NCBI GenBank assembly: GCA_904394215.1
Contig: CAJFNF010000012.1
Coordinates: forward strand, 1 to 47,588
Reading direction: 5' to 3'
DNA from: an uncultured Faecalibacterium sp.
Lineage (GTDB): Bacteria; Bacillota; Clostridia; Oscillospirales; Ruminococcaceae
DNA length: 47,588 bases
Part shown: positions 17,155 through 32,566 of the stretch, piece by piece
Position numbering within the stretch: position 1 is the first letter of the stretch
How the letters are laid out: each line of letters begins with the position of its first letter
Notes under the pieces: model-generated
The model's input: only the letters and a program-made list of their open reading frames with translations
Told to the model about the DNA's origin: nothing
Databases searched by the model: none
Translations under genes and position numbers: made by a program

Positions 17155-17583
17155 TCAGTTCAAAAACTCGAACAGATTCAGACCCACCTCGGGGCTGTAG
17201 CGGCGTTCCACAGTGCCGGGCAGGGCGGTGAGAACGAATTCGCCGGTCAGGCTGATGACGCCGCGGTTCAGGTGGCCGCCATGGCACTGGTCCAGCTCAG
17301 GATTGCCCACCACCATGTGAAGATGGAAGTAAGGCTTGCCCTCCATGGTGGTCACAGTGCCGGTGCAGGAAGCGATTTCAAAGTCGCCGGTATAGGTTTT
17401 GGACTGGTAAGCAAATTTTTTCCGGTCGAAGACCCCCAGGGTCACCTCGCCGACTGCGCCAATGCCGTAGAGGGTGCCCAGGGTGATCTGCTCCTTGGTG
17501 CACAGTTCGGCCAGGCTGGCGAGGATTTCCTCGCCGCGGTCAATCCGGATGAAATAGGTGTTTTCAAACTTGCGGTATTCCAT
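17155..17583 (-). CDS. PPC-domain (DUF296) protein
   Basis: A 142-residue protein covering a single PPC/DUF296 domain. It starts 'EYRKFENTYFIRIDRGEEI' and contains 'GTLYGIGAVGEVTLGVFD', 'YFHLHMVVGN' and 'GGHLNRG'. The HxH and following His resemble the trimer metal site of bacterial PPC proteins, whose cellular role is unclear; some are fused to or stand near DNA-binding domains. ATG 17583 is chosen over the longer frame because AAGGAG lies 8 bases upstream. It is transcribed alone, convergent to the GH32 fragment and divergent from the aldarate transporter. Confidence 0.8.
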   Translation of the reverse strand: MEYRKFENTYFIRIDRGEEILASLAELCTKEQITLGTLYGIGAVGEVTLGVFDRKKFAYQSKTYTGDFEIASCTGTVTTMEGKPYFHLHMVVGNPELDQCHGGHLNRGVISLTGEFVLTALPGTVERRYSPEVGLNLFEFLN

Positions 17584-17774
17584 ACGTAATCTCCTTTCCG
17601 CATCTGGAATGGGCTTTGTTTTTTGGAACAATTTTATCATAGCATGAAAGATTTGATGCGGCAAGAAGCTTGGGATACAACATGAATTGCGAAATGAAAC
17701 GCTTGGAATGCGGCTGCAAGAAATTTGGAATGGAAACGGATGCTCGTCAAAAAGATACAATGGATTGCACTTGT

Positions 17775-17821
17775 TTTGGGCATCTTTGTCGATTGCTGAC
17801 AATGAAACAAGCTGATATCAT
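17775..17821 (+). promoter_or_regulatory. Promoter of the aldarate transporter-esterase operon
   Basis: -35 TTGCTG (17793-17798) and extended -10 TGATATCAT (17813-17821) with a 17-base spacer. Thirteen bases before the -35 lies TTTGG, and TCTTTGTCGATTGC (17783-17796) is repeated exactly at 21287-21300 at the same distance from the -10. The 390-base gap 17584-17981 holds no gene that I can support. Confidence 0.65.
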
Positions 17822-17981
17822 AAAGCCATCGATAAAACAACTTTGGCCATGGTTGTCGGTATGTACACAAGCAATTTGGAAAAGGAAAGGAACTGCGGCG
17901 GGCAGGAGCGTCACTCCTTTTGCGGGGGAGACTGCATCGCTGGAGCTTCTGAATCCAAGCGAATTTAGGAGGTATCCCTGG

Positions 17982-19259
17982 ATGGATATGTATATTGTAT
18001 TGGGCATAACCATCTTTATGATGGCGATGTTCATCATTGGCAAAATGCCCTATGGCGTGATCACCATGACCTGCTGCGCACTGCTGGCTGTGACCGGCGT
18101 GATGCAGCCCGCTGAGGCCTTTTCGGGCCTGTCCAACTCTACAACCCTGCTGATTGCCGGCATGCTGGCCCTGGCAACCGCCTTCGGCAAAACCAGCGCT
18201 GTGGCCCGTGTGCGGAGCCTGCTGGCCAAGGCAAAAGAAAAAAATGGTCTGGTCTTTCTGCTTAGTCTGTTCCTGATCGTGATTGTGCTGTCCCAGCTGA
18301 TGGGCCGCACCGCCTGCATCTCGATCATGATTCTGTTCATCGGCTCGATGGATGATTCCGAGGGCATGACCGCTTCCCGCCTGATCACCGCCGTCTTCTC
18401 GGTGATGGCCATGTGGAACCTGAAGTTCCCCATCGGCCTGGGTGCTACCATGGCATCGGTGGCCAACTCCTTCTATGAAGGCATCATCACCGACCCTGCC
18501 CTGATGCTCAAGCCCACCGATCTGCTGCTGGTCACCATCATCCCCGGCCTGGCCATCCTGGCCTACGCCCTGTTTGCATGGCGCCTGATCCCTGACACCA
18601 GCAAGGTGGACACCAGCTCGGTCAAGAACGTGAAAGACGCAGCCGCCCTCTCCAAAAAGGATGAGATCTGCATCACCGTGGTCTTCTTCGCAGTGGTTGT
18701 TTCCTTCTTCTTCAGCACCCAGCTGGGCGGCCTGATGAACATCATGCCCATCATCGGTGTGCTGATCCTGATCTTCACCAAGTCCATCAGCGTGAAAGAG
18801 GCCGTTTCCTCCATGACCGTGGATATGGTCTGGATGGTCGCCGGCGTTCTGACCGTTTCCAGCGCCATCGGCAGCTCGGGTCTGGGCGATGTGATTGGCC
18901 AGGCCATCGAGGATTTCCTGGGCGGCTCCAACAACAGCTTCCTGATCATCCTGGTGTTCACCACCGCAGCCACCGTGATAACCACCTTCATGTCCAACAC
19001 CGGCACCCAGGCTCTGCTGACCCCCATCGCAGCAAGCTACTGCCTGGTCAGCGGCGGCGATCCCCGCGGCATTGTGCTGGCTGTCAACATTGCAGCAGTC
19101 TTTGCACTGGCCTTCCCCTCCGGCTCTGGTGAGTGCGCCCTGATGTTCGCCGTGACCGGCCACAACCCCATCAAGCTGCTGCGTTACACGGCACCTTATC
19201 TGCTGATCGCAATTCTTACCCTGACCTTCAGCGTGAACCTGTTCTTCCCGGTATTTTGA
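17982..19259 (+). CDS. SLC13/DASS-type anion permease, probably aldarate transporter
   Basis: A 425-residue membrane protein with about 11-12 hydrophobic segments, of the SLC13/ArsB-like ion transporter superfamily that carries di- and tricarboxylates. Two family landmarks are visible: 'FSGLSNSTTLLIAGM' near residue 47 and the C-terminal SNT motif 'FMSNTGTQALLTPIA' near residue 338, both of which bind carboxylates in this family. The start at 17982 has TTAGGAGG 9 bases upstream; the frame opens further upstream but that part is untranslated leader. It is the first gene of an operon with glucarate metabolism enzymes, so I infer D-glucarate or galactarate as substrate. GudP of the major facilitator family, the usual transporter, is absent here. 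Confidence 0.85.
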   Translation: MDMYIVLGITIFMMAMFIIGKMPYGVITMTCCALLAVTGVMQPAEAFSGLSNSTTLLIAGMLALATAFGKTSAVARVRSLLAKAKEKNGLVFLLSLFLIVIVLSQLMGRTACISIMILFIGSMDDSEGMTASRLITAVFSVMAMWNLKFPIGLGATMASVANSFYEGIITDPALMLKPTDLLLVTIIPGLAILAYALFAWRLIPDTSKVDTSSVKNVKDAAALSKKDEICITVVFFAVVVSFFFSTQLGGLMNIMPIIGVLILIFTKSISVKEAVSSMTVDMVWMVAGVLTVSSAIGSSGLGDVIGQAIEDFLGGSNNSFLIILVFTTAATVITTFMSNTGTQALLTPIAASYCLVSGGDPRGIVLAVNIAAVFALAFPSGSGECALMFAVTGHNPIKLLRYTAPYLLIAILTLTFSVNLFFPVF

Positions 19260-19284
19260 CGAACGATAGAATGGAGAGATGATC

Positions 19285-21063
19285 ATGAGTAAATGGACCG
19301 CTCAGTCTCTGCCGGATGCAGCATCCCTGACTGTAGACCCCAAGCATTATTACCGCCAGGTACTGCACGGCTATTACAACTTTAATTGTGTGGTCAGCGA
19401 AGGCGTGACCCGCACCGCAAAATTCTATGTGCCGGAAGGCAGCGTCTACAATCAGCCCACCGTTTTCCTGATGGTGCCTGCCCAGTATGAGACCAGCGAA
19501 TTTCTGCAGGACAGCGGCTGGAAGGATCTGGCCGACCAGATGGGCCTGTACATCGTGCTGATGGAGGCCGAGAACGGTGCCTGGGGTGAGGATGAGAAGG
19601 AAATCGCTTACATCACTGCCCTGAACGAAGATGTCAACTTCCGCCCCTTGTTCTGCGCCTTCTCCTCCAAATTCTTTGCCTATGGCTATGGCGAGGCCGC
19701 TGCAATTCTGGGCCGCCAGAGCCGCCTGTTCCCCAAGTGCTGGGCAGGTGTGGCGCTGCTGGGCCAGACCGGTATGAGCGCCCAGGAGCTGGCCGGCCTG
19801 CAGCAGAAGGAGACCCGTGTGCCTGGGGTGTATTACAGCCAGGTTCAGATGCCGGTCTGGATGTCCTGCCCGGTGCAGGATGAGGACTTTGATCGGATGG
19901 TGGAGTACTACCGCGCTGCAAACCACAGCGAGGACGTCCCCCAGGAGATGGACGGCCATAAGGTTTGGCAGCCCAAGAAAGGCGGCACAGTGGATGAACA
20001 CTGGTGCTCGGTGGTGGGCGTCGATACCCTCGGCTGGGAGGCCTGCATGACTGCGGGCTACTCCAAGATGATTTATGAAGTGGTGTTCCAGGGTGTGGCC
20101 CGGTTCCCTGGCAATGCAAACGGTGCCCTGCGCCGTTACCCCTCCCTGGAAGAACGGGGCTTCCGCAAATACACCGCACCGGTGGCGGGCGGCTATTACG
20201 ACGATGGCCGCGACACTTACCAGCGTGACTGGTGGGTCTATCAGCCCGACACCATCGACACCACCAAGCCTTTCCCGGTGGTCTTCGTCTTCCACGGGGC
20301 CGGCGGCAGCGGCGATGAGATCGCCGACCGCACCGGCTGGGGCGATCTGGCCAAGAAATATGGCTTTATGATCATCTGCCCCATGGCTTCGGTCCCCAAC
20401 CGGGTGCGCAATGTCACCAATATGGTGACCAACGAGATGTTCCGCGCCATGTGGAATACCGGCGCTCCCCAGCCGGAACGCCCGGCCGACCTGCTGTTTG
20501 TGGACTACCTGTACAACTGGGTCACCAGCAACTACAACGTGGACAAGAGCCGGGTCTACGCCAGCGGCCAGTCCTCCGGCGGTATGATGTCCTGGGCCTG
20601 CGCCTGCTACCGCCCCGACCTGTTCGCGGCCACTGCCCCCGTCTCGGCCAAGACCCCTGACATTGAGAACACCCCCCAGCCGTTTGTCAATGGCTCCATC
20701 ATCCCGGTGATGTCCAATCTGGGCCTGCTGGACGGCATGTTCAAGGGCGGCTTCGGCACCCCGGACGCCCGCATGCTGATCGAGCGCTGGCACGATGCGT
20801 TCCACCTCACCGAAAACTGGGACAGCTATACCTACGATGACGGCGGCAAGAACTGCAGTTCCCAGACGGGCCTGTTCACCAGCTATGTCTACCACAACCA
20901 TCAGGGCTTCCCCATCCTGCGCTGTGTAGAGGCTTCCACCAAGACCCATGCAGTCTGGCCCAGCGAGTGCGAGATGGCCTGGACCGAGTTCATGCAGTAC
21001 TTCACCAAGGATCCGGATACCAAGGAACTGTACTACAAGGGCGAAAAAGTTACCCTGGCGTGA
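19285..21063 (+). CDS. Tandem alpha/beta-hydrolase esterase (LpqC/feruloyl esterase-like)
   Basis: A 592-residue protein without signal peptide, made of two alpha/beta-hydrolase-like halves. The C-terminal half (about 290-590) resembles LpqC/PHB depolymerase and feruloyl esterases: oxyanion loop 'VFHGAGGSGDE' near 335, nucleophile elbow GQSSGG (Ser430) and a late His in 'KTHAVWPSE'. The N-terminal half (about 20-280) has 'AYGYGEAAAI' where the elbow would be, Gly in place of Ser, so it is probably non-catalytic. It follows the transporter by 25 bases and precedes glucarate dehydratase, so I infer that it releases an aldaric acid from an imported ester. Start: ATG 19285, 6 bases after GGAGAG; ATG 19279 is too close. 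Confidence 0.8.
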   Translation: MSKWTAQSLPDAASLTVDPKHYYRQVLHGYYNFNCVVSEGVTRTAKFYVPEGSVYNQPTVFLMVPAQYETSEFLQDSGWKDLADQMGLYIVLMEAENGAWGEDEKEIAYITALNEDVNFRPLFCAFSSKFFAYGYGEAAAILGRQSRLFPKCWAGVALLGQTGMSAQELAGLQQKETRVPGVYYSQVQMPVWMSCPVQDEDFDRMVEYYRAANHSEDVPQEMDGHKVWQPKKGGTVDEHWCSVVGVDTLGWEACMTAGYSKMIYEVVFQGVARFPGNANGALRRYPSLEERGFRKYTAPVAGGYYDDGRDTYQRDWWVYQPDTIDTTKPFPVVFVFHGAGGSGDEIADRTGWGDLAKKYGFMIICPMASVPNRVRNVTNMVTNEMFRAMWNTGAPQPERPADLLFVDYLYNWVTSNYNVDKSRVYASGQSSGGMMSWACACYRPDLFAATAPVSAKTPDIENTPQPFVNGSIIPVMSNLGLLDGMFKGGFGTPDARMLIERWHDAFHLTENWDSYTYDDGGKNCSSQTGLFTSYVYHNHQGFPILRCVEASTKTHAVWPSECEMAWTEFMQYFTKDPDTKELYYKGEKVTLA

Positions 21064-21413: not shown

Positions 21414-22742
21414 ATGATCCCTGCCGTAGCAAAGATGGAAGTCTACCCGGTTGCAGGCCATGACTGCATGGAACTGAACCTGTCCGGCGCACATGCGCCC
21501 TATTTCACCCGCAACGTCGTGATCCTCACCGATTCCAACGGTGTGGAGGGCGTGGGCGAAGTGCCCGGCGGCCAGAAAATCACCGCCGCCCTGGAAGCAG
21601 TCAAGGATCTGGTGGTGGGAACCAGCATCGGCGACTATAAACAGACCCTGAACAAGGTCCGCGCATGGCTGAACGCCAACATCAAGGACGATGTGCGGGG
21701 CAACCAGACCTTTGATCTGCGCACCGGTGTGCATGTGGTTACTGCCATCGAGGCCCCGCTGCTGGACCTGCTGGGCAAGTTCCTGGACGTGCCTGCCGCC
21801 GCTCTGATGGGGGACGGCATCCAGCGGGAAAAGGTGCGCTTCCTGAGCTATCTGTTCTATATCGGAGACCGCAAAAAGACCGATCTGCCCTATGAGGAAG
21901 AGCCGGACGCAGACTGCGACTGGTACCGCCTGCGCCATGAGGAGGCCCTGACCCCTGAGGCCATTGTGGCACTGGCCAAGGCCACCCACGAGAAGTACGG
22001 CTTTGAGGACTTCAAGCTCAAGGGCGGCGTGCTGCCGCCCAAAGAAGAGGTCAAGGCAGTGCAGGCCATCAAGGAAGCCTTCCCTGAGGCCCGGGTGGAC
22101 CTGGACCCCAACGGATGCTGGAGCCTGAAGGAAGCCCTGGAGATTGCCCCTGAGCTGAAGAAGTGCCTGGCCTACTGCGAGGATCCTGTGGGCGCAGAGG
22201 ACGGCTTCTCGGGCCGCGAGGTGATGGCTGAGTTCCGCAAGGCCACCATGATGCCCACCGCCACCAACATGATCAACACCGACTGGCGGCAGATGTGCCA
22301 CACCATCGCCTTGCAGAGCGTGGATATCCCCCTGGCCGATCCCCATTTCTGGACCATGAACGGCTCGGTGCGTGTGGGCCAGCTGTGCAATGACTTCGGC
22401 CTGATGTGGGGCTGCCACTCCAACAACCACTTCGACATCAGCCTGGCCATGGTGGTGCAGTGCGCCGCCGCCATCCCCGGCCGGATGAACGGCATCGACA
22501 CCCACTGGATCTGGCAGGAAGGCCGGGAGCGTCTCACCAAAGAGCCTCTGCAGATTGTGGGCGGCTGCATCGACCTGCCCAAGAAGCCGGGCCTGGGCAT
22601 CGAAGTGGACCGCGATCAGGTCATGAGGGCCAACAAGCTGTATCTGGACAACTGCCTGGGCGCCCGGGACGATGCCAAGGGCATGCAGTATCTGATCCCC
22701 GGCTGGAAGTTTGACCCCAAGAAGCCCTGTCTGGTTCGCTGA
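21414..22742 (+). CDS. gudD: D-glucarate dehydratase
   Basis: A 442-residue enolase-superfamily enzyme that turns D-glucarate into 5-dehydro-4-deoxy-D-glucarate. It follows E. coli GudD closely throughout: [20 protein letters not shown], '[13 protein letters not shown]', the base pair of lysines in FKLKGGV, the Mg ligands in DLDPNGCWS and 'CEDPVGAE', '[13 protein letters not shown]', the catalytic His in HSNNHFDIS, and the end 'GMQYLIPGW' to LVR. Length equals the family norm (about 445). Start ATG 21414 has AAAGGA 10 bases upstream. It has its own promoter and is followed by a strong terminator, so it can be expressed apart from the transporter. Confidence 0.95.
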
Positions 22743-22824: not shown

Positions 22825-22935
22825 GAAAGAATTCTGTTATAATTGTTTCATTGATGCCGGTTGTTTTGGATTGGACTGCAGCGGGGAAGGGCTGTTTTCC
22901 CTGCGCTGCCCGGAATCCGCAGAAAGGAGCCGTTT

Positions 22936-24834
22936 ATGAATCACATTGCGATGCTGCTGCCCAAAGAGGATCTTGTCAGCCGGGCGCAGGTGCAGGCCTC
23001 CGGCCATGACGCCATTGCAGAAATCCGCTGCATCACCACCGAACGGGCGGTGGAAGAGGCGGAAGCATCCATCCGCCGGGGAGCGGTGATTCTGATTGCC
23101 CGGGGGCTGCAGGCGCTGCGGATTCGGTCGGGCCTGAATGTGCCGGTGGTCAGCGTCCGGCTGACCGCCCAGGGAATCGGTATGCTGCTGCGCAAAGCGC
23201 GCCAGTTCACCGACAAGCCCTGCCCCCGTGTGGCGCTGGTGGTGGTCCAGGATATGCTCTGCGACACCAGCTGCTGCAATCTGCTGTTCAACGTCAATCT
23301 GGAAATCCATGTCTACCGCACCGAAGAAGAGTACGAAAAGGTCAATCGTGAGGCCCTGAATACCCACCCCGATGTGATCATCGGAGGGGACAGGACGGTG
23401 GAAATGGCCAAGGAGGCCGGGACCGCCTGCCTGTTTTTGGATTTCAGTGACGATTCCTTCCAGAATGCCATCCGAAACGCAGAGGTTGCCCTGCAGGCCA
23501 ACGAAAACAACCAGCGGGCCAACGCCCAGATTGACGCGCTGCTCAACAACACCACCGACGGATACATTCAGGTCAGCAGGACCGGCCTTGTGACCAAGTG
23601 CAACGACATTATCCTGCGGGACCTGGAAACCAGCTTCGAAGCGCTCAAGGGCCGGCCCCTGTGGGAGGTGCTCCCGGGCCTGGAGCGGGAGGTGGTGGAA
23701 AACGTGCTGAAAAACGGCACCAACTATTCCACGTTCCTTCACATCCGGGCGCAGGCCATGGTGGCGATTCTGGCCCCCGTCCAGCTGGAAAGCGGCCGCA
23801 TTGACAGCGCAATCTTTTCCTGCCACCGGGTACACCGGACCATTCAGCTGGACCCTGCGGTGGAGGATGGGGTGCTGCTGACCGGGAACCTGGCCCAGCG
23901 CACCTTTGACAACGTCTACCACCGCTCTCCCATGATGGCCCGGGCGGTGGAGCAGGCCCGGCTGTTCAGCCAGTCCGAAAACCCCATCCTGCTGACCGGC
24001 CCCCAGGGCTCTGAAACCCGGCTGCTGGCCCAGTGCATCCACAATAACGGGGTCAACCGCACCGGTCCTTTTGTTCAGCTCAACTGCGCCAGCCTGGAAC
24101 CGGAAGAGCAGATGTCAACCCTGTTTGGCACCGGCTACAAGGGCAAGGACGGGGACGTGAACCTGGGGGTTTTCGGCATGGCGGAAAACGGTACCCTGAT
24201 GCTCCAGGAGATCGAGAAGCTTTCTTACAGCGCCCAGTCCAACATCTACCAGGCCATCCGTTACCACCGGATCATCCAGCGCAACCTGGAGCGCCCGGTA
24301 CAGATCCATGTGCGGCTGATTGTCACCACCGAGAGCGACCTGTGGCAGATGGCCTGTGCCGGCCAGTTCCGGTCGGATTTGTACTACCTGCTGTCCGGGC
24401 TGCGGATCGACCTGCCGCCGCTGAAAAAGCGCCCTGAGGACCTGGAAGACATCCTGAAAAGGACCTTCCGCCGGACCTGCGAGGCCTACCACCGCTATCA
24501 TGTCATCACCAACGGCGGCATGGAGGAACTGCTGCATTATGATTGGCCGGGCAATATCATCCAGGTCAACAGTTTCATGGAGCGGCTGGTTCTGACCGCC
24601 GCCCACCGCAGCATTGACGAGGGCGCCATCCGCCGGCTGTGGCAGCAAATGTTCCCCGAGTACACGGTTTCCCGGGAAGAGACTGTTTCCACTTTCAGCC
24701 AGAGCCGGGAGGCCCAGCGGATTACCGAGGCGCTGGCCCGCAATGACGGCAACCGGGCGGTTACCGCCCAGGAGCTGGGCATCAGCACCACCACCCTCTG
24801 GCGCAAAATCAAAAAACTGGGGATTGATGTTTGA
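22936..24834 (+). CDS. PrpR-like regulator with degenerate AAA+ domain
   Basis: A 632-residue regulator: PrpR_N-type sensor (about 1-170), PAS domain (about 190-300, 'TTDGYIQVSRTGLV'), an AAA+ region (about 330-540) and a Fis-type HTH at the end (595-632, ELGISTTTLWRKIKKLG). In normal sigma-54 activators the AAA+ part has Walker A GETGTGKE, the GAFTGA loop and Walker B LFLDEI. Here these read GPQGSETR, TGYKGKDGDVN and LMLQEI: Lys, GAFTGA and the Asp are gone, and the arginine-finger region YYRLN reads YYLLS. It therefore should not hydrolyse ATP or remodel sigma-54. I infer a DNA-binding regulator of the surrounding aldarate genes using sigma-A promoters. Start 22936 has AAAGGAG 6 bases upstream. 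Confidence 0.85.
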   Translation: MNHIAMLLPKEDLVSRAQVQASGHDAIAEIRCITTERAVEEAEASIRRGAVILIARGLQALRIRSGLNVPVVSVRLTAQGIGMLLRKARQFTDKPCPRVALVVVQDMLCDTSCCNLLFNVNLEIHVYRTEEEYEKVNREALNTHPDVIIGGDRTVEMAKEAGTACLFLDFSDDSFQNAIRNAEVALQANENNQRANAQIDALLNNTTDGYIQVSRTGLVTKCNDIILRDLETSFEALKGRPLWEVLPGLEREVVENVLKNGTNYSTFLHIRAQAMVAILAPVQLESGRIDSAIFSCHRVHRTIQLDPAVEDGVLLTGNLAQRTFDNVYHRSPMMARAVEQARLFSQSENPILLTGPQGSETRLLAQCIHNNGVNRTGPFVQLNCASLEPEEQMSTLFGTGYKGKDGDVNLGVFGMAENGTLMLQEIEKLSYSAQSNIYQAIRYHRIIQRNLERPVQIHVRLIVTTESDLWQMACAGQFRSDLYYLLSGLRIDLPPLKKRPEDLEDILKRTFRRTCEAYHRYHVITNGGMEELLHYDWPGNIIQVNSFMERLVLTAAHRSIDEGAIRRLWQQMFPEYTVSREETVSTFSQSREAQRITEALARNDGNRAVTAQELGISTTTLWRKIKKLGIDV

Positions 24835-24977: not shown

Positions 24978-25067
24978 GAAATCATCAGAAACACAAAAAC
25001 CAGTGCGGGCAAGGAAAAGCGGAGCCTCTGACGACGCCCGGCAAATGGACAAGAAAGGATGATATTT

Positions 25068-25988
25068 ATGGCGTTTGTTCCATACGGGATTACGCCCCCC
25101 ATCATTACCCCCTTCCATCAGGATGGGTCGGTCAATTATGAGGCCCTGGCAATGATGAGCAGGCGTCTGGTGGACAATGGCGTGCATGGCCTGTTCCCCC
25201 TGGGAACCACCGGCGAGTTCTACGCAGTCAATGAGGACGAGTTTGTCAAGATCCTCACCACTGTCAAGGAGGCGGTGGCCGGCAAGACCACCCGCAAGGG
25301 CCGCCCGATCCAGCTGTTTGCAGGCTGCAACCACATCACCACCCGCGGGGTGATCCGGCTGATCAAGCTGGTGGAACAGGTTGGGGGCTACGATGCAGTC
25401 AGCGTGCTGACCCCCATGTTTATCAGCCAGACCCAGGAAGAGCTGTACACCTATTACAAGACCATCGCCGACAGCACCGAGATGCCGGTGATTCTGTACA
25501 ACAACAAGCCCAAGACCAACGTCACCATTGCCCCCGCCACCGTGGCCCGGCTGGCGCGGGACTGCAAGAATATTGTGGCGGTGAAAGACTCCACCGGCGA
25601 TATGACCAACGCCGAGGAATATCTCCGGCTGACCGCTGACCAGCGGGATCATTTCAATGTGCTGATGGGCCGCGACACCCTGATCTATGCGGCGCTGCAG
25701 TACGGCGCCACCGGCGCCATTGCCAGCTGCGCCAACGTGGCGCCCCGCATCACTGCCGACATCTACGACAAGTGGGAGGACGGCGATTATGCAGGGGCAC
25801 TGGAGGCCCAGTACAAGCTGGCTCCGCTGCGGATCGCCACCAACATGGGCACCTTCCCCCAGACCATCAAGGAGGCTCTGGTGATGCAGGGCCTGCCGGT
25901 GGGCAAGTGCCTGGACCCCATCCAGGAGCTGTGTCCTGAGGACAAGGAGAAGCTCCGCAAGGTACTGGAGCAGATGGATCTGCTCTGA
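25068..25988 (+). CDS. DapA-family aldolase, probably 5-dehydro-4-deoxyglucarate aldolase
   Basis: A 306-residue (beta/alpha)8 enzyme of the dihydrodipicolinate synthase/N-acetylneuraminate lyase family. The Schiff-base lysine is in 'IVAVKDSTGD' (about residue 172), the conserved Tyr in 'VILYNNKPKT' and the carboxylate-binding 'GTTGEFYAVNEDE' near residue 45. The family includes KDG aldolase and 5-keto-4-deoxyglucarate dehydratase. As a tartronate semialdehyde reductase follows directly, cleavage to pyruvate plus tartronate semialdehyde is the best reading, replacing GarL of enteric bacteria. Start ATG 25068 has AAAGGA 8 bases upstream. The alternative, decarboxylating KdgD activity, would make the next two genes hard to explain. 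Confidence 0.8.
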   Translation: MAFVPYGITPPIITPFHQDGSVNYEALAMMSRRLVDNGVHGLFPLGTTGEFYAVNEDEFVKILTTVKEAVAGKTTRKGRPIQLFAGCNHITTRGVIRLIKLVEQVGGYDAVSVLTPMFISQTQEELYTYYKTIADSTEMPVILYNNKPKTNVTIAPATVARLARDCKNIVAVKDSTGDMTNAEEYLRLTADQRDHFNVLMGRDTLIYAALQYGATGAIASCANVAPRITADIYDKWEDGDYAGALEAQYKLAPLRIATNMGTFPQTIKEALVMQGLPVGKCLDPIQELCPEDKEKLRKVLEQMDLL

Positions 25989-26039
25989 GATATACATACA
26001 CAATCCTTTGTTGCTTGAATGGAAAGAGAGGTATATTCT

Positions 26040-26921
26040 ATGAAAATCGGTCTGATTGGTTTGGGTATTATGGGCAAGCCCATGGCAAGGAACCTGCTGA
26101 AGGCAGGCTACAATCTGATGGTCAACAACCTCACCGAGGCCCCCATGAAGGAGCTGGCCACCTATGGCGCAATTCCCGCTACCCAGCCCGAAATCGGTGA
26201 GCAGTGCGACGTGGTGATGACCATGCTGCCCAACTCTCCCCAGGTGGAAGAAGTGATGCTGGGAGAGGACGGCGTGGCTGCCCACATGCGTCCGGGCACC
26301 GTCTTCATCGACATGAGCTCCATCAACCCTGTGGCCAGCAAGAAGATCGCTGCCGTCCTGGCAGAGAAGAACATCGAGATGCTGGACGCCCCTGTCTCGG
26401 GCGGTGAGCCCAAGGCCATTGACGGCACCCTGTCCTTCATGGTGGGCGGCAAGCAGGAAGTCTTTGACAAGTACAAGGATCTGCTGGGTGCCATGGGCAC
26501 CAGTGTGGTGCGCTGCGGCGAAGTAGGCGCAGGCAACACCACCAAGCTGGCCAACCAGATCATTGTGGCCTGCAACATCCAGGCCCTGGCCGAGGCCCTG
26601 ACCCTGGCCCAGAAGGCCGGTGTGGATCCCCAGCTGGTGTTTGAAGCCATCCGGGGCGGCCTGGCAGGCTCCACCGTTATGAACGCCAAGGCTCCCATGA
26701 TGATCGAGGGCAACGTGAAGCCCGGCTTCAAGATCGACCTCCACATCAAGGACCTGAACAACGCTCTGGACTGCGCCCATGCCATCGGCGCACCGGTGCC
26801 CATGACCGCCGAGGTCCAGGAAGTGCTGCAGTGGCTGCACAACCAGGGCGAAGGCCAGAATGACCACAGCTGCATCGCACACTACTACGAGAAGCTGACC
26901 GGCATCCAGATCGGCCGCTGA
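26040..26921 (+). CDS. garR: Tartronate semialdehyde reductase (2-hydroxy-3-oxopropionate reductase)
   Basis: A 293-residue beta-hydroxyacid dehydrogenase reducing tartronate semialdehyde to D-glycerate with NAD(P)H. Visible are the Rossmann motif GLGIMGKPMARNL at residues 7-19, the substrate-binding DAPVSGGEPKA near 117-127 and the catalytic lysine in 'GAGNTTKLANQ' (about residue 170). Length matches GarR (about 294). Start ATG 26040 has GAGAGG 8 bases upstream. It follows the aldolase by 51 bases and precedes glycerate kinase by 40, an obvious pathway operon. Confidence 0.92.
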   Translation: MKIGLIGLGIMGKPMARNLLKAGYNLMVNNLTEAPMKELATYGAIPATQPEIGEQCDVVMTMLPNSPQVEEVMLGEDGVAAHMRPGTVFIDMSSINPVASKKIAAVLAEKNIEMLDAPVSGGEPKAIDGTLSFMVGGKQEVFDKYKDLLGAMGTSVVRCGEVGAGNTTKLANQIIVACNIQALAEALTLAQKAGVDPQLVFEAIRGGLAGSTVMNAKAPMMIEGNVKPGFKIDLHIKDLNNALDCAHAIGAPVPMTAEVQEVLQWLHNQGEGQNDHSCIAHYYEKLTGIQIGR

Positions 26922-26961: not shown

Positions 26962-28194
26962 ATGAACAGCCGTTTACGCCAAGATGCCGACACCATCATC
27001 CAGCAGGCGATCCACGCCGTTTTGCCGGATGAAGCAGTCCGCCGCGCACTGGAAGGGCGCGCCTTCCCCGGGCGGGTGCTGCTGGTGGCCGCAGGAAAAG
27101 CGGCCTGGCAGATGGCTCATGCTGCTGTGAACTGCCTGGGTGATCAGCTGACCGCCGGTGTGGTGGTCACCAAGTATGACCACGTCAAGGGAGAGCTGCC
27201 CCGCTGTACCTGCTATGAAGCGGGGCACCCTGTCCCTGACCAGAATTCGTTCCGGGCCACCCAGGCGGCGCTGGATCTGGTGGCCGGCACAAAGCCGGAA
27301 GACACGGTGCTGTTTTTGCTGTCCGGCGGCGGCAGCGCCCTGTTTGAAAAGCCGCTGATCCCGGGCGAAGAGCTCCAGGACATCACCGGCCAGCTGCTGG
27401 CCTGCGGCGCGGACATCGTGGAGATGAACACGGTGCGCAAGCGCCTGTCGGGGGTCAAGGGCGGGCGGTTTGCCCAGGCCTGTGCCCCGGCCCGGGTCTA
27501 TGCAGTGGTGCTGTCGGATATCCTGGGGGACCCTCTGGACATGATCGCCTCGGGGCCTGCCTGTCCCGACTCCAGCACCTGCGCCGACGCGCTGGCGGTG
27601 GTGGAGAAATATGGCCTCAGGCTCAGCGAAGCTGCCATGGCCTGTCTCCATCAGGAGACCCCCAAGCAGCTTGACCATGTGGAGACCCGGATCACCGGCA
27701 GCGTGCGGGAACTCTGCTCCGCCGCGGCTGCGGCCTGCCGCAGCCTGGGCTACCGGCCTGTGATTCTGACCGACCAGCTCTGCTGCCAGGCCAAAGAAGC
27801 GGGCTCCTTCCTGGCATCCATCCTCAAGACCCATGCCGGCGACGGCGAGCCGCTGGCCTTCCTGGCGGGAGGCGAGACGGTGGTTCAGCTGACCGGCAAA
27901 GGCCTGGGCGGACGCAACCAGGAGCTGGCGCTGGCAGCAGCCCCCGGCATTGCCGGGATGGAAAACGCTGCTGTCTTCAGCGTGGGCTCGGACGGTACCG
28001 ACGGCCCCACCGATGCGGCAGGCGGCTATGTGGACGGCGACACCCTGGCAGCTCTGGCCGCCTGCGGGCTGCAGGTCCATCAGGTGCTGGCCGACAACGA
28101 CGCCTATCATGCGATGCAGGCGGTCGGCGGTCTGGTTGTGACCGGGCCCACCGGCACCAACGTCAACGACGTGGCAGTTGCATTGATCCGCTAA
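26962..28194 (+). CDS. Glycerate 2-kinase, MOFRL family
   Basis: A 410-residue kinase of the GckA/TtuD type (DUF4147 plus MOFRL domains), which makes 2-phosphoglycerate from D-glycerate and so feeds glycolysis. Motifs: 'VLLVAAGKAAWQMA' near residue 35, 'LFLLSGGGSALFEKP' near 115, 'EMNTVRKRLSGVKGGR' near 155, 'LSDILGDPLDMIASGP' near 183 and the C-terminal MOFRL loop 'GSDGTDGPTDAAGGYV' near 340. It is unrelated in sequence to the GarK-type kinase used by E. coli for the same step. Start ATG 26962 is preceded by AAGGAAGG. Confidence 0.92.
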   Translation: MNSRLRQDADTIIQQAIHAVLPDEAVRRALEGRAFPGRVLLVAAGKAAWQMAHAAVNCLGDQLTAGVVVTKYDHVKGELPRCTCYEAGHPVPDQNSFRATQAALDLVAGTKPEDTVLFLLSGGGSALFEKPLIPGEELQDITGQLLACGADIVEMNTVRKRLSGVKGGRFAQACAPARVYAVVLSDILGDPLDMIASGPACPDSSTCADALAVVEKYGLRLSEAAMACLHQETPKQLDHVETRITGSVRELCSAAAAACRSLGYRPVILTDQLCCQAKEAGSFLASILKTHAGDGEPLAFLAGGETVVQLTGKGLGGRNQELALAAAPGIAGMENAAVFSVGSDGTDGPTDAAGGYVDGDTLAALAACGLQVHQVLADNDAYHAMQAVGGLVVTGPTGTNVNDVAVALIR

Positions 28195-28316: not shown

Positions 28317-28338
28317 GGATTGAACCCGGAGGTTGTCT

Positions 28339-29682
28339 ATGTCTGTTTCTTCTCCAGTCATCACCTCCATGCAGGTCATCCCGGTGGCGGGATACGACAG
28401 CATGCTGATGACCCTCAGCGGGGCCCATGCGCCCTGCTTCACCCGCAACATTGTCATCCTGAAAGACAGCGCCGGCCACATCGGTATCGGCGAGATCCAC
28501 GGCGGTGATTTTACCTGTGAAAGCCTCAACGCCGTCCGCCCCCTGGTGGAGGGCCAGCCGGTGGCCTGCTACCGGCAGGTGCTCCAGCAGATCCACAAGC
28601 TCACCCGGCCGGGGGGCGAAGGGGATCTGCAGACGCTGGACATTGCCAAACTGAAATTTGTGGTCAAGAGCGAATGGGCCATCGAGTGCGCCATGCTGGA
28701 CCTGATGGGCCAGTTTGCCGGCGTCCCCATGTGCCAGCTGCTGGGGGAGGGCAAACAGCGCAGCGAGGTGGAGCTTCTTGGCTATCTGTTTTATGTGTCG
28801 GATAAGCGCAAGTACACCGGCCCCGGCATCCCCTATCTGGACGAGAGCGAAAGCAGCGACCCCTGGTTCCGGCTGCGGCGGCAGGAGATCCTGACCCCCG
28901 GCCGGCTGGCCGAGGAGGCCCAGGCGGTGCATGAAAAATACGGCGTCACCAACTTCAAGCTCAAGGGCGGCGTGCTGGCCGGCGAAGAGGAGATGGAGGG
29001 GCTGCGGGCACTGAAAAAACTGTATCCCGACGCCCGCATCAACATCGACCCCAACGGCGCCTGGAGCCTGGCCGAGGCCATCCGTCTGTGCCGCCCGATG
29101 CACGATGTCATCACCTATGTGGAGGACCCCTGCGGCCCGGAGGAGGGCTATTCCGGCCGGGAGATCATGCGGGAGTTCAAAAATGCCACCCAGTTCCAGG
29201 TGGCCACCAACATGATCGCCACCAACTGGCGGCAGCTCTACCACACCGTCAGCCTCAACGCCTGCGACATCATCCTGGCAGACCCCCATTTCTGGGGCTT
29301 TGACGGCACCATTCGGATGTCCCAGATGCTGGAGCAGTGGGGGCTGACCTGGGGCGTCCATTCCAACAACCATTTCGACATCACCTTAGCTGCCTTTGCC
29401 CAGGTGGGGGCAGCGGCAGCCGGGCAGCCCGCGCCGCTGGATACCCATTGGATCTGGCAGGACGGCCAGAACCTGCTGGAAGATACCCCTGAAATCCGGG
29501 GCGGCAGGCTCCAGGTTCCGGAAGGGCCTGGTCTGGGGGTCCACCTGAATATGGACCGGGTGATGGAGGCCAACGCCCTGTACAACCGCCTGCCCAGCCA
29601 CGACCGGGATGACAGTATGGCCATGCAGTACCTGATCCCGGGCTGGAAATACGACCACAAAAAGCCCTGCCTGGTGCGCTGA
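28339..29682 (+). CDS. Glucarate dehydratase-like protein (GudX type)
   Basis: A 447-residue paralog of the enzyme at 21414, about half identical by eye. It keeps the core residues: NFKLKGGV lysines, NIDPNGAWS, 'YVEDPCGPEEG', 'VATNMIATN' and HSNNHFDIT. It differs in two regions: '[13 protein letters not shown]' of GudD becomes LQTLDIAKLKFVVKSEW, and TDWRQ becomes TNWRQ. E. coli likewise has GudD and a less active relative GudX next to each other. It may act on another aldarate epimer such as idarate, or form mixed complexes. Start ATG 28339 has CGGAGG 6 bases upstream; the in-frame TTG 28333 is too close to it. Confidence 0.85.
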   Translation: MSVSSPVITSMQVIPVAGYDSMLMTLSGAHAPCFTRNIVILKDSAGHIGIGEIHGGDFTCESLNAVRPLVEGQPVACYRQVLQQIHKLTRPGGEGDLQTLDIAKLKFVVKSEWAIECAMLDLMGQFAGVPMCQLLGEGKQRSEVELLGYLFYVSDKRKYTGPGIPYLDESESSDPWFRLRRQEILTPGRLAEEAQAVHEKYGVTNFKLKGGVLAGEEEMEGLRALKKLYPDARINIDPNGAWSLAEAIRLCRPMHDVITYVEDPCGPEEGYSGREIMREFKNATQFQVATNMIATNWRQLYHTVSLNACDIILADPHFWGFDGTIRMSQMLEQWGLTWGVHSNNHFDITLAAFAQVGAAAAGQPAPLDTHWIWQDGQNLLEDTPEIRGGRLQVPEGPGLGVHLNMDRVMEANALYNRLPSHDRDDSMAMQYLIPGWKYDHKKPCLVR

Positions 29683-29787: not shown

Positions 29788-31005
29788 TCAATCCACCGTC
29801 TGCAGGTATTCGTCCATGGCCTGGGCCACTTCTTTGGAATACTTGACGGCTTCCACCACCGTGCGGGCGCCCAGCACCACATCGCCGCTGGCAAAGACGC
29901 CGGGGCGGGTGGTCTCGCCCTTTTCGTCGGTGGTCAGCAGGCCGCGGTCGCTGGTTTCCAGGCCCTTGGTGGTGCTGACGATCCGGTTCAGGGGGCCCTG
30001 GCTCACCGCCACGATGACGCTGGAACAGGGGAAGAACTGGGGCTCGCTCAGCTGGGTGACGTTGCCGGCCTCGTCAAAGCTGGCCATCTGGTAGCGCACC
30101 CCGTCGTCGGTGATCTCCACCGGCCGGGCGCCGTAGAGGAATTCCACCCCGTCGGCCACTGCGTAGTCGATCTCCCGGGCGCTGGCAGCCGCCTGGAGCC
30201 GGCGGCAGAAGACGGTTACATGCCGGACCCCTTTGCGCAGGGCGGTACGGGCCACATCCATGGCCGAGTTGCCCGCGCCGATGACCACCAGGTCGTTGCC
30301 CAGGTCGTAGACGTCCGGGTTCTGCAGATAGTTGATGGCGAAATGTACATTGCCCAGGCTCTCGCCGGGAATGTTCAGCTTGTGGGGCCGCCAGACGCCG
30401 GTGCCGATGAAGATGGCTTTGTAGCCGTCCCGCTGCAGGTCATCCAGGGTCAGGGTGGAGCCGATGACGGTGTTGGGGCGGATCTTGATGCCCAGCTGCA
30501 CCAGCTGGGTCTTGTACCGGTCCAGGATGGTCTTGGGCAGGCGGAAGTCGGGGATTCCATACCGCAGCACACCGCCGATCTTGTCCCGGCTCTCAAAGAG
30601 GGTGACGTCGTAGCCCTTCTGGGCCATCAGCACCGAGATGGTGATGCCTGCCGGGCCGGAGCCGATGATGGCTACCCGCTTGTTTTTGCGGCTTTCACGC
30701 TCAATCTGGACCCGGTCCAGATAGCTGTCCGAGATGTAGTTTTCGATGCTGGAGATGTGGACCGGCTCCCCCTTGAGGCCCCGGACACAGTGGCCCTCGC
30801 ACTGCTTCTCATGGTCGCAGACCAGGGAGCAGACCACGCTGAGGGGATTGTTGTCAAAGAGCATCTGGCCCGCTTCATCCAGCTTGCCGTTCAGGAACAT
30901 CTGGATCATATCGGGGATGGGGGTATGGATGGGGCAGCCCTCGCGGCACATGGGCTTTTTGCAGTGCAGGCAGCGACGGGCCTCGTTTACAACATGGATT
31001 GCCAA
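29788..31005 (-). CDS. GltD-like NAD(P)-dependent flavoprotein oxidoreductase
   Basis: A 405-residue protein related to the glutamate synthase small subunit and PreT. The N-terminal iron-sulfur domain has CLHCKKPMCREGC (residues 12-24) and CSLVCDHEKQCEGHC (about 59-73), enough for two [4Fe-4S] clusters. The FAD site is IIGSGPAGI near residue 112 and the NAD(P) site is VIGAGNSAMD near residue 248. No GltB-like partner is encoded nearby, so it likely passes electrons to another enzyme. It is the last gene of the aldo/keto reductase-galactarate dehydratase operon, 37 bases after it. Start: TTG 31005 with AAGGAG 9 bases upstream; no ATG is available in frame. Substrate unknown. Confidence 0.75.
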   Translation of the reverse strand: MAIHVVNEARRCLHCKKPMCREGCPIHTPIPDMIQMFLNGKLDEAGQMLFDNNPLSVVCSLVCDHEKQCEGHCVRGLKGEPVHISSIENYISDSYLDRVQIERESRKNKRVAIIGSGPAGITISVLMAQKGYDVTLFESRDKIGGVLRYGIPDFRLPKTILDRYKTQLVQLGIKIRPNTVIGSTLTLDDLQRDGYKAIFIGTGVWRPHKLNIPGESLGNVHFAINYLQNPDVYDLGNDLVVIGAGNSAMDVARTALRKGVRHVTVFCRRLQAAASAREIDYAVADGVEFLYGARPVEITDDGVRYQMASFDEAGNVTQLSEPQFFPCSSVIVAVSQGPLNRIVSTTKGLETSDRGLLTTDEKGETTRPGVFASGDVVLGARTVVEAVKYSKEVAQAMDEYLQTVD

Positions 31006-31042: not shown

Positions 31043-32566
31043 TCAGGTGATGGGGGCAGGGTTGAAAATACACAGATCGTTGTGGAACCCGTACTGATCG
31101 CTGTAGGGCTGGCGGGTGCCGCTGGCCACATCCAGGATCATGTCGAAGATCTCCTGCCCCACGTCAGCGATGGTCTTTTCGCCGGTGGCGATCTGGCCGG
31201 CCGAAATGTCGATGAGGTCAAACCAGTGCTCTTTCATCTCGGTGCGGCTGCACACCTTGATCACCGGGCAGATATCCAGCCCGTAGGGGGTGCCCCGGCC
31301 GGTCATGAACACCTGCAGGCCGATGCCGCTGGCGGTCTGGCTGGGGCCGCAGACAATGTCGCTGGCGGGGGTGGCCGCATAGATCAGGCCGTGCTTGGTG
31401 GGGCGCTGGGCAGGGGAGAGCACCTCCACGATGGGGCTGGTGCCCGACTTGGCAATGGAGCCCATGGCCTTTTCCACAATGTTGGCAAGACCGCCCTTCT
31501 TGTTGCCCGGGGTGGGGTTGGCGTCCCGGTCCACCCCGCCTGCGGCCAGATAGTCGTCGTACCACTGCATCTCTTCGGCCAGGCGGTCCCGGGTGTGCTT
31601 GTCAACACAGCGGGCGGCCAGCATGGGCACGCCGTCCCGGACCTCGGTGACCTCGCTGAACAGGACGGTGGCGCCGCCCCGCACCAGCATGTCGGCGGCG
31701 TAGCCGGCGCTGGGGTTGGCGGTGATGCCGCTGAAGGCGTCGCTGCCGCCGCACTGCATCCCGATCAGCAGTTCGCTGAGGGGCAGCTCCTCCCGGCGGC
31801 GCTGGTTGAGGCGCTGGAGCTTTTTGTCTGCCATATCCAGAATCGCCTGCATCATGGCGTCGTGACCGGCGTAATCCTGCAGGGTCAGCACGTTTTCAGG
31901 GGTGATATCCTCGGGGGGGAGCACCCGGTCGTAGGTCAGCTTTTCGCAGCCCAGGCCCACCACCATGATCTCACCCCCGAAGTTGGGGTGGCGGATCAGG
32001 TTGGTCACTGCCCGGATGGGAATATTGGCCAGAGGGGCATTGATGGCCACGCCGCAGCCATAGGGATGGGTGACTGCCACCACCCCGTCCACGTTGGGAT
32101 ACTTGGGCAGCAGTTCCCGGCGGATGCGTTCCACCGCCACCTTCAGCACGCCTGCGGCGCACTGGACGGTGGTCACAATGCCCAGCAGGTTGCGGGTGCC
32201 GGCGGGGCCGGTTTTGTTGCGGTAGCCCATCCAGGTGGTACGGGTGGGGGCGGGCAGCTGATCAACGGGAACCAGGTTGGTGGCGTAAGGCAGGTCCTTC
32301 AGAGAGGGGCTCTCGGGCAGGTTGAGCATGTGCTCATTGATCCAGCTGCCGGCCGGGATGTCTGCCTTGGCATAGCCCAGCACCACGCCGTACCGGATGA
32401 TCTCGCCGCCGGCCGGGATGTCCTGCAGGGCAATTTTGTGGGCCTGGGGGATGGGATCGCGGGTGCAAAGGCCGGGCATGACCTCCACCCCGGCGGGCAG
32501 ATCATGGACGGCTACCGCTACGTTGTCGGCGTCCTTGATGCGGATGATCTTGGGGGATTCACTCAT
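31043..32566 (-). CDS. garD: Galactarate dehydratase
   Basis: A 507-residue dehydratase of the GarD/UxaA family, making 5-dehydro-4-deoxyglucarate from galactarate. The N-terminal SAF domain (about 1-90, 'NVAVAVHDLPAG') is followed by the UxaA core. Long stretches match E. coli GarD: GYRNKTGPAGTRNLLGI, PYGCGVAINAP, 'IGMQCGGSDAFSGITANPS', GNKKGGLANIVEKAMGSIAK and LIYAATPASDIVCGP. The cysteines and histidines that bind Fe(II) are present. Length is close to the 523 of E. coli. Start ATG 32566 has AAAGGAG 9 bases upstream. Its product is the same as GudD's, so both dehydratases feed the aldolase encoded on the other strand. Confidence 0.93.
   Translation of the reverse strand: MSESPKIIRIKDADNVAVAVHDLPAGVEVMPGLCTRDPIPQAHKIALQDIPAGGEIIRYGVVLGYAKADIPAGSWINEHMLNLPESPSLKDLPYATNLVPVDQLPAPTRTTWMGYRNKTGPAGTRNLLGIVTTVQCAAGVLKVAVERIRRELLPKYPNVDGVVAVTHPYGCGVAINAPLANIPIRAVTNLIRHPNFGGEIMVVGLGCEKLTYDRVLPPEDITPENVLTLQDYAGHDAMMQAILDMADKKLQRLNQRRREELPLSELLIGMQCGGSDAFSGITANPSAGYAADMLVRGGATVLFSEVTEVRDGVPMLAARCVDKHTRDRLAEEMQWYDDYLAAGGVDRDANPTPGNKKGGLANIVEKAMGSIAKSGTSPIVEVLSPAQRPTKHGLIYAATPASDIVCGPSQTASGIGLQVFMTGRGTPYGLDICPVIKVCSRTEMKEHWFDLIDISAGQIATGEKTIADVGQEIFDMILDVASGTRQPYSDQYGFHNDLCIFNPAPIT

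Follow-up and report, generated by a model that had tools for sequence, protein, structure and literature searches.

Why should an operon for the breakdown of glucarate carry a gene for an alpha/beta-hydrolase that appears to stay inside the cell? The question is raised by a 47,588-nucleotide contig of an uncultured Faecalibacterium sp. (CAJFNF010000012.1; the whole stretch is referred to as the window), which encodes a tandem alpha/beta-hydrolase at 19285..21063 on the plus strand. The protein is a predicted intracellular esterase, with a pseudo-hydrolase N-half and a C-half that carries a Ser/Asp/His triad. Its position agrees with a preliminary description of this DNA, which had placed it between a dicarboxylate-type transporter and glucarate dehydratase: a CitMHS/DASS gene precedes it and a glucarate-dehydratase-like gene follows.

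The carrier and the tandem hydrolase

The carrier gene (17970..19259, plus strand) encodes an anion transporter of the single-protein CitMHS/DASS type, scoring 72.8 bits against the Pfam CitMHS cut-off of 31.9. The cut-off of the DASS symporter model TIGR00785 was missed (75.3 vs 198.6), and the match to the VcINDY structures was weak (E 1.6e-6). The reading frame is open from 17670; the true start probably lies near 17970, since the relatives in two of the loci discussed below (L003 and L004), which occupy the same position and are 59% identical, are 427 aa long.

The frame of the tandem hydrolase begins 20 bp past the end of the carrier gene and runs uninterrupted from 19279 to 21063 (plus strand), giving 594 aa from the first ATG. 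The methionine aligned with 19285 is the ORF start in L002 and L003, and an in-frame ATG stands at this point in L004, so that the 592-aa form starting at 19285 was kept as the likely true one. Hydropathy scoring of the first 60 residues of ORFs, as distinct from dedicated signal-peptide prediction and with starts as called, which may differ from the true starts, detected no N-terminal hydrophobic segment. A secreted feruloyl esterase was rejected for want of a signal-like segment at the N-terminus.

The C-half exceeds the cut-off of the Pfam Esterase family PF00756 (30.6 bits vs 22) and has weaker Pfam matches to Peptidase_S9 and Esterase_PHB, and the Pfam scan gave no match of its own to the N-half. 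When profiles of the two halves were compared, they matched over 234 columns with the nucleophile elbows in register (probability 99.6, E 9e-24), whereas a negative control of the N-half against six unrelated profiles from these loci gave probabilities of 0.1-0.3. In sequence terms, the N-half is a divergent copy of the C-half that lacks the catalytic serine. Counted from 19285, the triad of the C-half comprises Ser430, Asp483 and His555; numbering in the 594-aa frame is higher by two, so that Ser430 becomes Ser432, and the nucleophile motif G-Q-S-S-G covers residues 430-434. In this second numbering, Gly430, Ser432 and His557 are each kept in all 67 aligned tandem relatives, and the acid position 485 is occupied by Asp in 55 and by Glu in 12 of them. 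The C-half thus combines the GxSxG motif, late histidine and acidic residue of PF00756 and feruloyl-esterase-like enzymes. The corresponding elbow of the N-half reads GYGEA in the window; across the 67 relatives its nucleophile position is Gly in 47 and Ser in none, so the loss of the serine is a trait of the family, a single row having Ser one alignment position earlier. The tandem architecture without a signal peptide, the intact elbow at Ser430 with its late histidine and the loss of the N-half serine had all been read from the window beforehand, and the Pfam assignment, half-against-half match, hydropathy score and conservation across relatives bear them out.

Family models offered less guidance. 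Identity as a PHB depolymerase was rejected, both NCBIfam models falling short of their curated cut-offs (NF050058, 121.6 vs 150 bits; TIGR01840, 77.2 vs 107.85 bits). The nearest solved structures to a seven-sequence profile were the PHB-depolymerase-family esterase 8daj, LC-Est1C, feruloyl esterases and acetylxylan esterase A; alignment of the N-half against the PDB returned nothing usable (best E 0.46), and an AlphaFold2 model built with four sequences was unusable (mean pLDDT 39).

The glucarate and galactarate genes of the window

Two glucarate dehydratase-like proteins are encoded downstream on the plus strand. GudD1 (21414..22742) reaches 728.8 bits with TIGR03247 (cut-off 828.7) and 707.9 bits with glucarate dehydratase 4hyr; GudD2 (28333..29682) reaches 595.7 bits with the same model, also below 828.7, and 550 bits with glucarate dehydratase 4g8t. 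Both align over nearly their full length to solved glucarate dehydratases despite missing the TIGR03247 cut-off, which was passed in none of the 18 genomes with a CitMHS-linked tandem gene and in none of 200 genomes of one family. Galactarate dehydratase GarD, on the minus strand (31043..32566), lies above its curated cut-off (TIGR03248, 743.1 bits vs 730.85). Since this gene accompanies the GudD genes, the cluster is predicted to serve galactarate as well as glucarate.

Between the two GudD genes, all on the plus strand, are a PrpR-type sigma-54 activator with PrpR_N, Sigma54_activat and HTH_8 domains, the probable regulator (22861..24834); a DHDPS-family aldolase or dehydratase (25059..25988; PF00701, 215 bits), probably responsible for the 5-keto-4-deoxyglucarate step; tartronate semialdehyde reductase GarR (26019..26921; NF008592, 460 bits over a cut-off of 397; TIGR01505, 404.6 over 340.75); and a glycerate 2-kinase (26962..28194), recognised by its Pfam domains DUF4147/MOFRL, the NCBIfam glycerate 2-kinase models being below cut-off. 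The GudD-like proteins, GarD, GarR and glycerate kinase are shared with the glucarate/galactarate pathway; the window differs from it in the added CitMHS carrier and hydrolase and in a DHDPS-type enzyme, Pfam and NCBIfam scans of cluster genes having revealed none of the GarL type.

The DHDPS-family protein reached no NCBIfam cut-off. Genes 64% and 68% identical to it occur in the gudD clusters L170 and L171, and genes 35-37% identical in L002-L004; whether aldolase or dehydratase, in the glucarate clusters of gut Clostridia it appears to take the place of GarL. Between GudD2 and GarD lies a GltD-like NAD(P)-binding protein (29788-31005, minus strand), matched by NCBIfam glutamate synthase models below cut-off and 87-88% identical to proteins in two other genomes (L178, 8110-9327; L188, 279-1496); a function in the breakdown of aldarates is not known to us for this protein. 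A PCC/DUF296 protein is encoded on the minus strand immediately upstream of the operon (17155-17802), and a 54% identical protein occurs ~4 kb from gudD in L172. A scan for promoters and terminators gave no clear excess over shuffled sequence (5 promoter-like sites vs a mean of 4.0; 15 terminator-like sites vs 11.1).

Relatives of the hydrolase and their link to gudD

A scan of genome contigs recovered three further loci, from Candidatus Faecalibacterium faecipullorum (L002, hydrolase 81% identical), Candidatus Avilachnospira avicola (L003, 61%) and an uncultured Lachnospiraceae bacterium (L004, 59%). All three keep the order carrier, tandem hydrolase, glucarate genes, so that the arrangement which the preliminary description had proposed to look for in other gut Clostridia does recur in other genera, down to 59-61% identity. 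A scan of viral contigs returned 40 pattern matches and no relative.

Six-frame genome searches extended the set to 68 full-length tandem genes in 67 loci (the window, L002-L004 and 63 fetched stretches), the loci taken with their surroundings being chiefly those of the best tandem matches; the truncated copy in L086 is not counted in the 68. Genes in these loci were called with a simple ORF caller and labelled by BLAST to a panel and selected Pfam scans. A CitMHS gene lies within 600 bp on the same strand for 24 of the 68. On a tree built with a quick method (n = 67, after removal of the partial row L134_1), this linkage requires 4 changes vs a mean of 20 for shuffled labels. One clade is linked in 15 of 16 members, the sixteenth (L158) beginning 186 bp from a contig end, and a second in 7 of 8, with L036 as the exception; the further linked genes are those of L043/L044. 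No N-terminal hydrophobic stretch was found in any of the 24 CitMHS-linked proteins vs 16 of the 44 others, some of which have 1900 residues and more.

Two groups among the unlinked relatives deserve separate mention. In related bacteria (L091, L093, L100, L134 and L137), the tandem hydrolase is embedded in proteins of ~1900-2700 residues with a signal-like N-terminus; the pairing of a dead with an active hydrolase therefore probably serves in intracellular as well as extracellular enzymes. In another group (L087, L090, L094, L095, L099, L135, L139 and L143), the tandem gene adjoins genes of 456-465 aa with many matches across each other's loci. The one scanned, in L135, encodes an MFS_2 sugar carrier, and an AraC-type regulator with a GH39-like part is encoded nearby; this group is possibly a sugar-ester counterpart of a module for acid esters.

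To gauge the association with glucarate genes, gudD-like genes were defined as TIGR03247 matches with E up to 1e-100; both controls, E. coli and B. subtilis, gave a signal. Two comparisons, both biased towards gudD by a search that began from the window and both resting on crude lineage and placement statistics, point in the same direction: gudD-like genes are present in 14 of the 18 genomes with a CitMHS-linked gene vs 9 of 200 genomes of one family (one of the nine being itself a CitMHS-linked genome), and gudD is no more than 10 kb away from 5 of 21 linked genes (counting L158) vs 0.33 expected under uniform placement. With lineages counted once, collapsed by hand without kinship data and with the 12 linked genomes presumed all to belong to the background family, the first comparison becomes 4 of 5 vs 8 of 199 (p 3e-5); kinship inflates the result obtained before collapsing (11 of 12, p 1e-12). 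The five genes near gudD represent three lineages, for which P is about 0.005. A chance neighbourhood was rejected on the conserved order in L002-L004, the linkage in 24 of 68 genes, its clustering on the tree and these gudD statistics. Conversely, six of the eight other gudD-positive background genomes have no tandem match at E 1e-25, and two (G1044 and G1145) have a tandem gene without a CitMHS neighbour; gudD therefore does not need the tandem hydrolase.

Proposed import and intracellular hydrolysis of an aldarate ester

The pairing of a soluble intracellular esterase with a CitMHS/DASS carrier suggests that an acyl conjugate of glucarate or galactarate is imported and then cut inside the cell, a reading to which we give slightly more credence than doubt. 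The carrier would import an anionic conjugate of glucarate or galactarate in which a hydroxyl group is acylated. Attack on the ester would come from the C-half serine, the acyl group leaving through an acyl-enzyme, and the N-half copy, devoid of the catalytic serine, probably shapes the active site or a dimer. The freed aldarate would then pass through GudD1/GudD2 or GarD to the DHDPS-type enzyme, GarR and glycerate kinase.

For arabinoxylo-oligosaccharides, uptake and subsequent de-esterification in the cytosol are already known from the Xua system of Ruminiclostridium cellulolyticum, in which the feruloyl/p-coumaroyl esterase XuaH and the acetyl esterase XuaJ are cytosolic (PMC11127375). As described there, the acylated molecules enter intact and lose their acyl groups in the cytoplasm to an esterase that lacks a signal peptide and belongs to the same operon; judged by gene context and hydropathy, the window likewise co-encodes an esterase lacking a signal peptide with an importer and catabolic genes. 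The Xua account differs in its substrate, its oligosaccharide importer and its intracellular glycoside hydrolases, in place of which the window has a CitMHS anion carrier, sugar-acid enzymes of the aldarate type and a tandem protein with a dead half. Gut bacteria are also reported to hydrolyse chlorogenic acid, in one account with intracellular enzymes, and intracellular chlorogenate/cinnamoyl esterases are described from lactobacilli and bifidobacteria (PMC3679781, PMC4335975, PMC6237967). These enzymes cut hydroxycinnamoyl esters of an organic acid, chlorogenic acid; the excerpts of these reports mention no CitMHS partner or aldarate operon.

Other aldarate clusters help to define what accompanies the carrier. 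Of 21 fetched gudD regions without an adjoining tandem gene, 2 have CitMHS, and in both another hydrolase stands beside it. Among 15 gudD loci whose neighbours were in part scanned with Pfam (L170-L184), TctA occurs in four (L170, L173, L175 and L183), GntP in two (L171 and L177) and CitMHS only in L182, beside GarD and directly followed by an Abhydrolase_3 esterase; no carrier was recognised within the fetched stretch in the remaining eight. Ten further neighbours scanned (nine from the TctA/GntP loci, one from L174) included no esterase, and the scanned neighbours in L175 included two amidohydrolases. The second region, L185, extends L178 (genome G054), and its glucarate cluster is 76-94% identical to that of the window. 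Here the slot between the CitMHS gene (43% identical) and GudD1 is filled by two metallo-beta-lactamase-fold proteins and a UxuA-like protein, and a second CitMHS gene lies upstream; the fold implies no resistance function, the NCBIfam subclass-B3 models being matched far below their cut-offs. A CitMHS-linked tandem gene is present elsewhere in both genomes (L165 in G1436, the genome of L182; L035 in G054), and the two regions are therefore not clean swaps. Since three different hydrolase families adjoin CitMHS in aldarate clusters, the comparison suggests that the conserved element is the hydrolysis of whatever is imported, although Abhydrolase_3 and the tandem family share the alpha/beta-hydrolase fold and cannot be called unrelated.

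The metallo-beta-lactamase-fold proteins of L185 also fit lactone or amide hydrolysis. The metallo-beta-lactamase fold includes lactonases, and a lactone is chemically an internal ester. Their presence in the same slot makes somewhat likelier the main rival explanation, in which the carrier imports glucaro- and galactarolactones and the hydrolase, encoded directly before the dehydratase, opens the ring for GudD or GarD. We still regard an aldarolactonase as unlikely: the nearest sequence relatives are esterases of the PHB-depolymerase, feruloyl and acetylxylan types, and relatives whose neighbours are a 2-hydroxyacid dehydrogenase, or nothing but regulators, give no hint of lactones.

How closely the pair is tied to aldarates can be judged from the neighbours of the 24 CitMHS-linked genes and L158 (n = 25). 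A sugar-acid dehydratase is encoded in 10 of these loci: GudD in the window, L002, L003, L004 and L167; a galactarate/altronate-type dehydratase in L034, L125, L126 and L161, and also in the window, L003 and L004; and, in L035, another enolase-superfamily dehydratase followed in the same direction by an Oxidored_FMN/FAD protein. Three loci (L124, L157 and L158) have a 2-hydroxyacid dehydrogenase instead, beside hydrolases 64% identical to that of the window; L043 encodes a threonate-kinase-like protein and an iron alcohol dehydrogenase together with a fragment of DHDPS; and 11 (L044, L085, L127, L159, L160, L162-L166 and L169), several of them at contig ends, have no acid-catabolic gene. Hence part of the family does stand beside genes unrelated to aldarates, an outcome that the preliminary description, with mainly unrelated neighbours in mind, had named as telling against it, and the 10 dehydratase loci tell for it. 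Relatives 62-64% identical to the window protein adjoin 2-hydroxyacid dehydrogenase or no recognised acid gene, and those with the dehydrogenase are closer to it than L003/L004, which speaks against strict aldarate specificity of the whole predicted subfamily. Given such varied partners, the pair is not tied to glucarate alone, and the label 'aldarate' may be too narrow.

The same variety of neighbours, from GudD and GarD-type dehydratases through the enolase-type enzyme with its flavin oxidoreductase to 2-hydroxyacid dehydrogenase and the threonate-kinase-like, Fe-ADH and DHDPS genes, favours a broader alternative, that of a CitMHS-esterase pair acting on conjugates of a wide range of hydroxy acids, malate, tartrate and quinate among them, for which the window's glucarate cluster would be one of several settings. 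We rate this as rather unlikely in view of the excess of gudD in linked genomes and the nearness of linked genes to it; for the window itself it is compatible with import and cleavage of an aldarate ester. That the gene encodes a detoxifying or housekeeping esterase hitchhiking in the operon, unrelated to aldarates, is improbable: tandem relatives elsewhere do have an MFS_2 carrier, members of the beta-lactamase family or further alpha/beta-hydrolases in their vicinity, or begin with a signal-like segment, but the gene order is kept to 59-61% identity in other genera and the carrier pairing repeats with different dehydratases.

Returning to the import and cleavage of an aldarate ester, we read the fold, the triad, the location of the protein and its pairing with the carrier from sequence; we infer uptake of a conjugate, hydrolysis of its ester and an aldarate moiety from the gene context, and the nature of the acyl group is a guess. 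The preliminary description had proposed both parts, naming plant hydroxycinnamoyl glucarates or galactarates as examples of the imported esters. The first part gains from the recurrence of the carrier-hydrolase pair with GudD, galactarate/altronate-type and enolase-superfamily dehydratases; the hydroxycinnamoyl bond does not, an OYE-type flavoprotein, by BLAST to the panel a possible enoate reductase and the one direct piece of context evidence for an aromatic half, being found in 1 of 24 CitMHS-linked loci (L035). OYE-type flavin oxidoreductases occur near tandem genes in L035, L045, L046, L100 and L143, and no enrichment is claimed. Hydroxycinnamoyl aldarates are nevertheless a plausible, weakly supported candidate substrate, because plants contain them and feruloyl esterases are among the nearest solved enzymes. 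Caffeoyl-, coumaroyl- and feruloylglucaric acids are described from amaranth (PMC6617258), and hydroxycinnamoyl aldarates from many plants among the literature matches listed, which in their excerpted form include no bacterial route for these compounds and no aldarate esterase.

A wider form of the proposal, which we hold to be doubtful, is a module of gut Clostridia in which CitMHS and a cytoplasmic hydrolase of one of three families (two of the alpha/beta-hydrolase fold, one of the metallo-beta-lactamase fold) would import plant acyl-aldarates intact, namely caffeoyl-, feruloyl- and coumaroyl-glucarate and -galactarate and perhaps galloyl-mucate, and split them inside. The acid would enter carbon metabolism and, where a lineage has a flavoprotein resembling enoate reductases, as in L035, the hydroxycinnamate would act as an electron sink.

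The repetition of the carrier-hydrolase pair with different acid dehydratases makes a bacterial route for hydroxycinnamoyl aldarates testable with a single enzyme and a single transporter. Such a route would assign a role to tandem hydrolases, which the family models link no more than loosely with PHB depolymerases.
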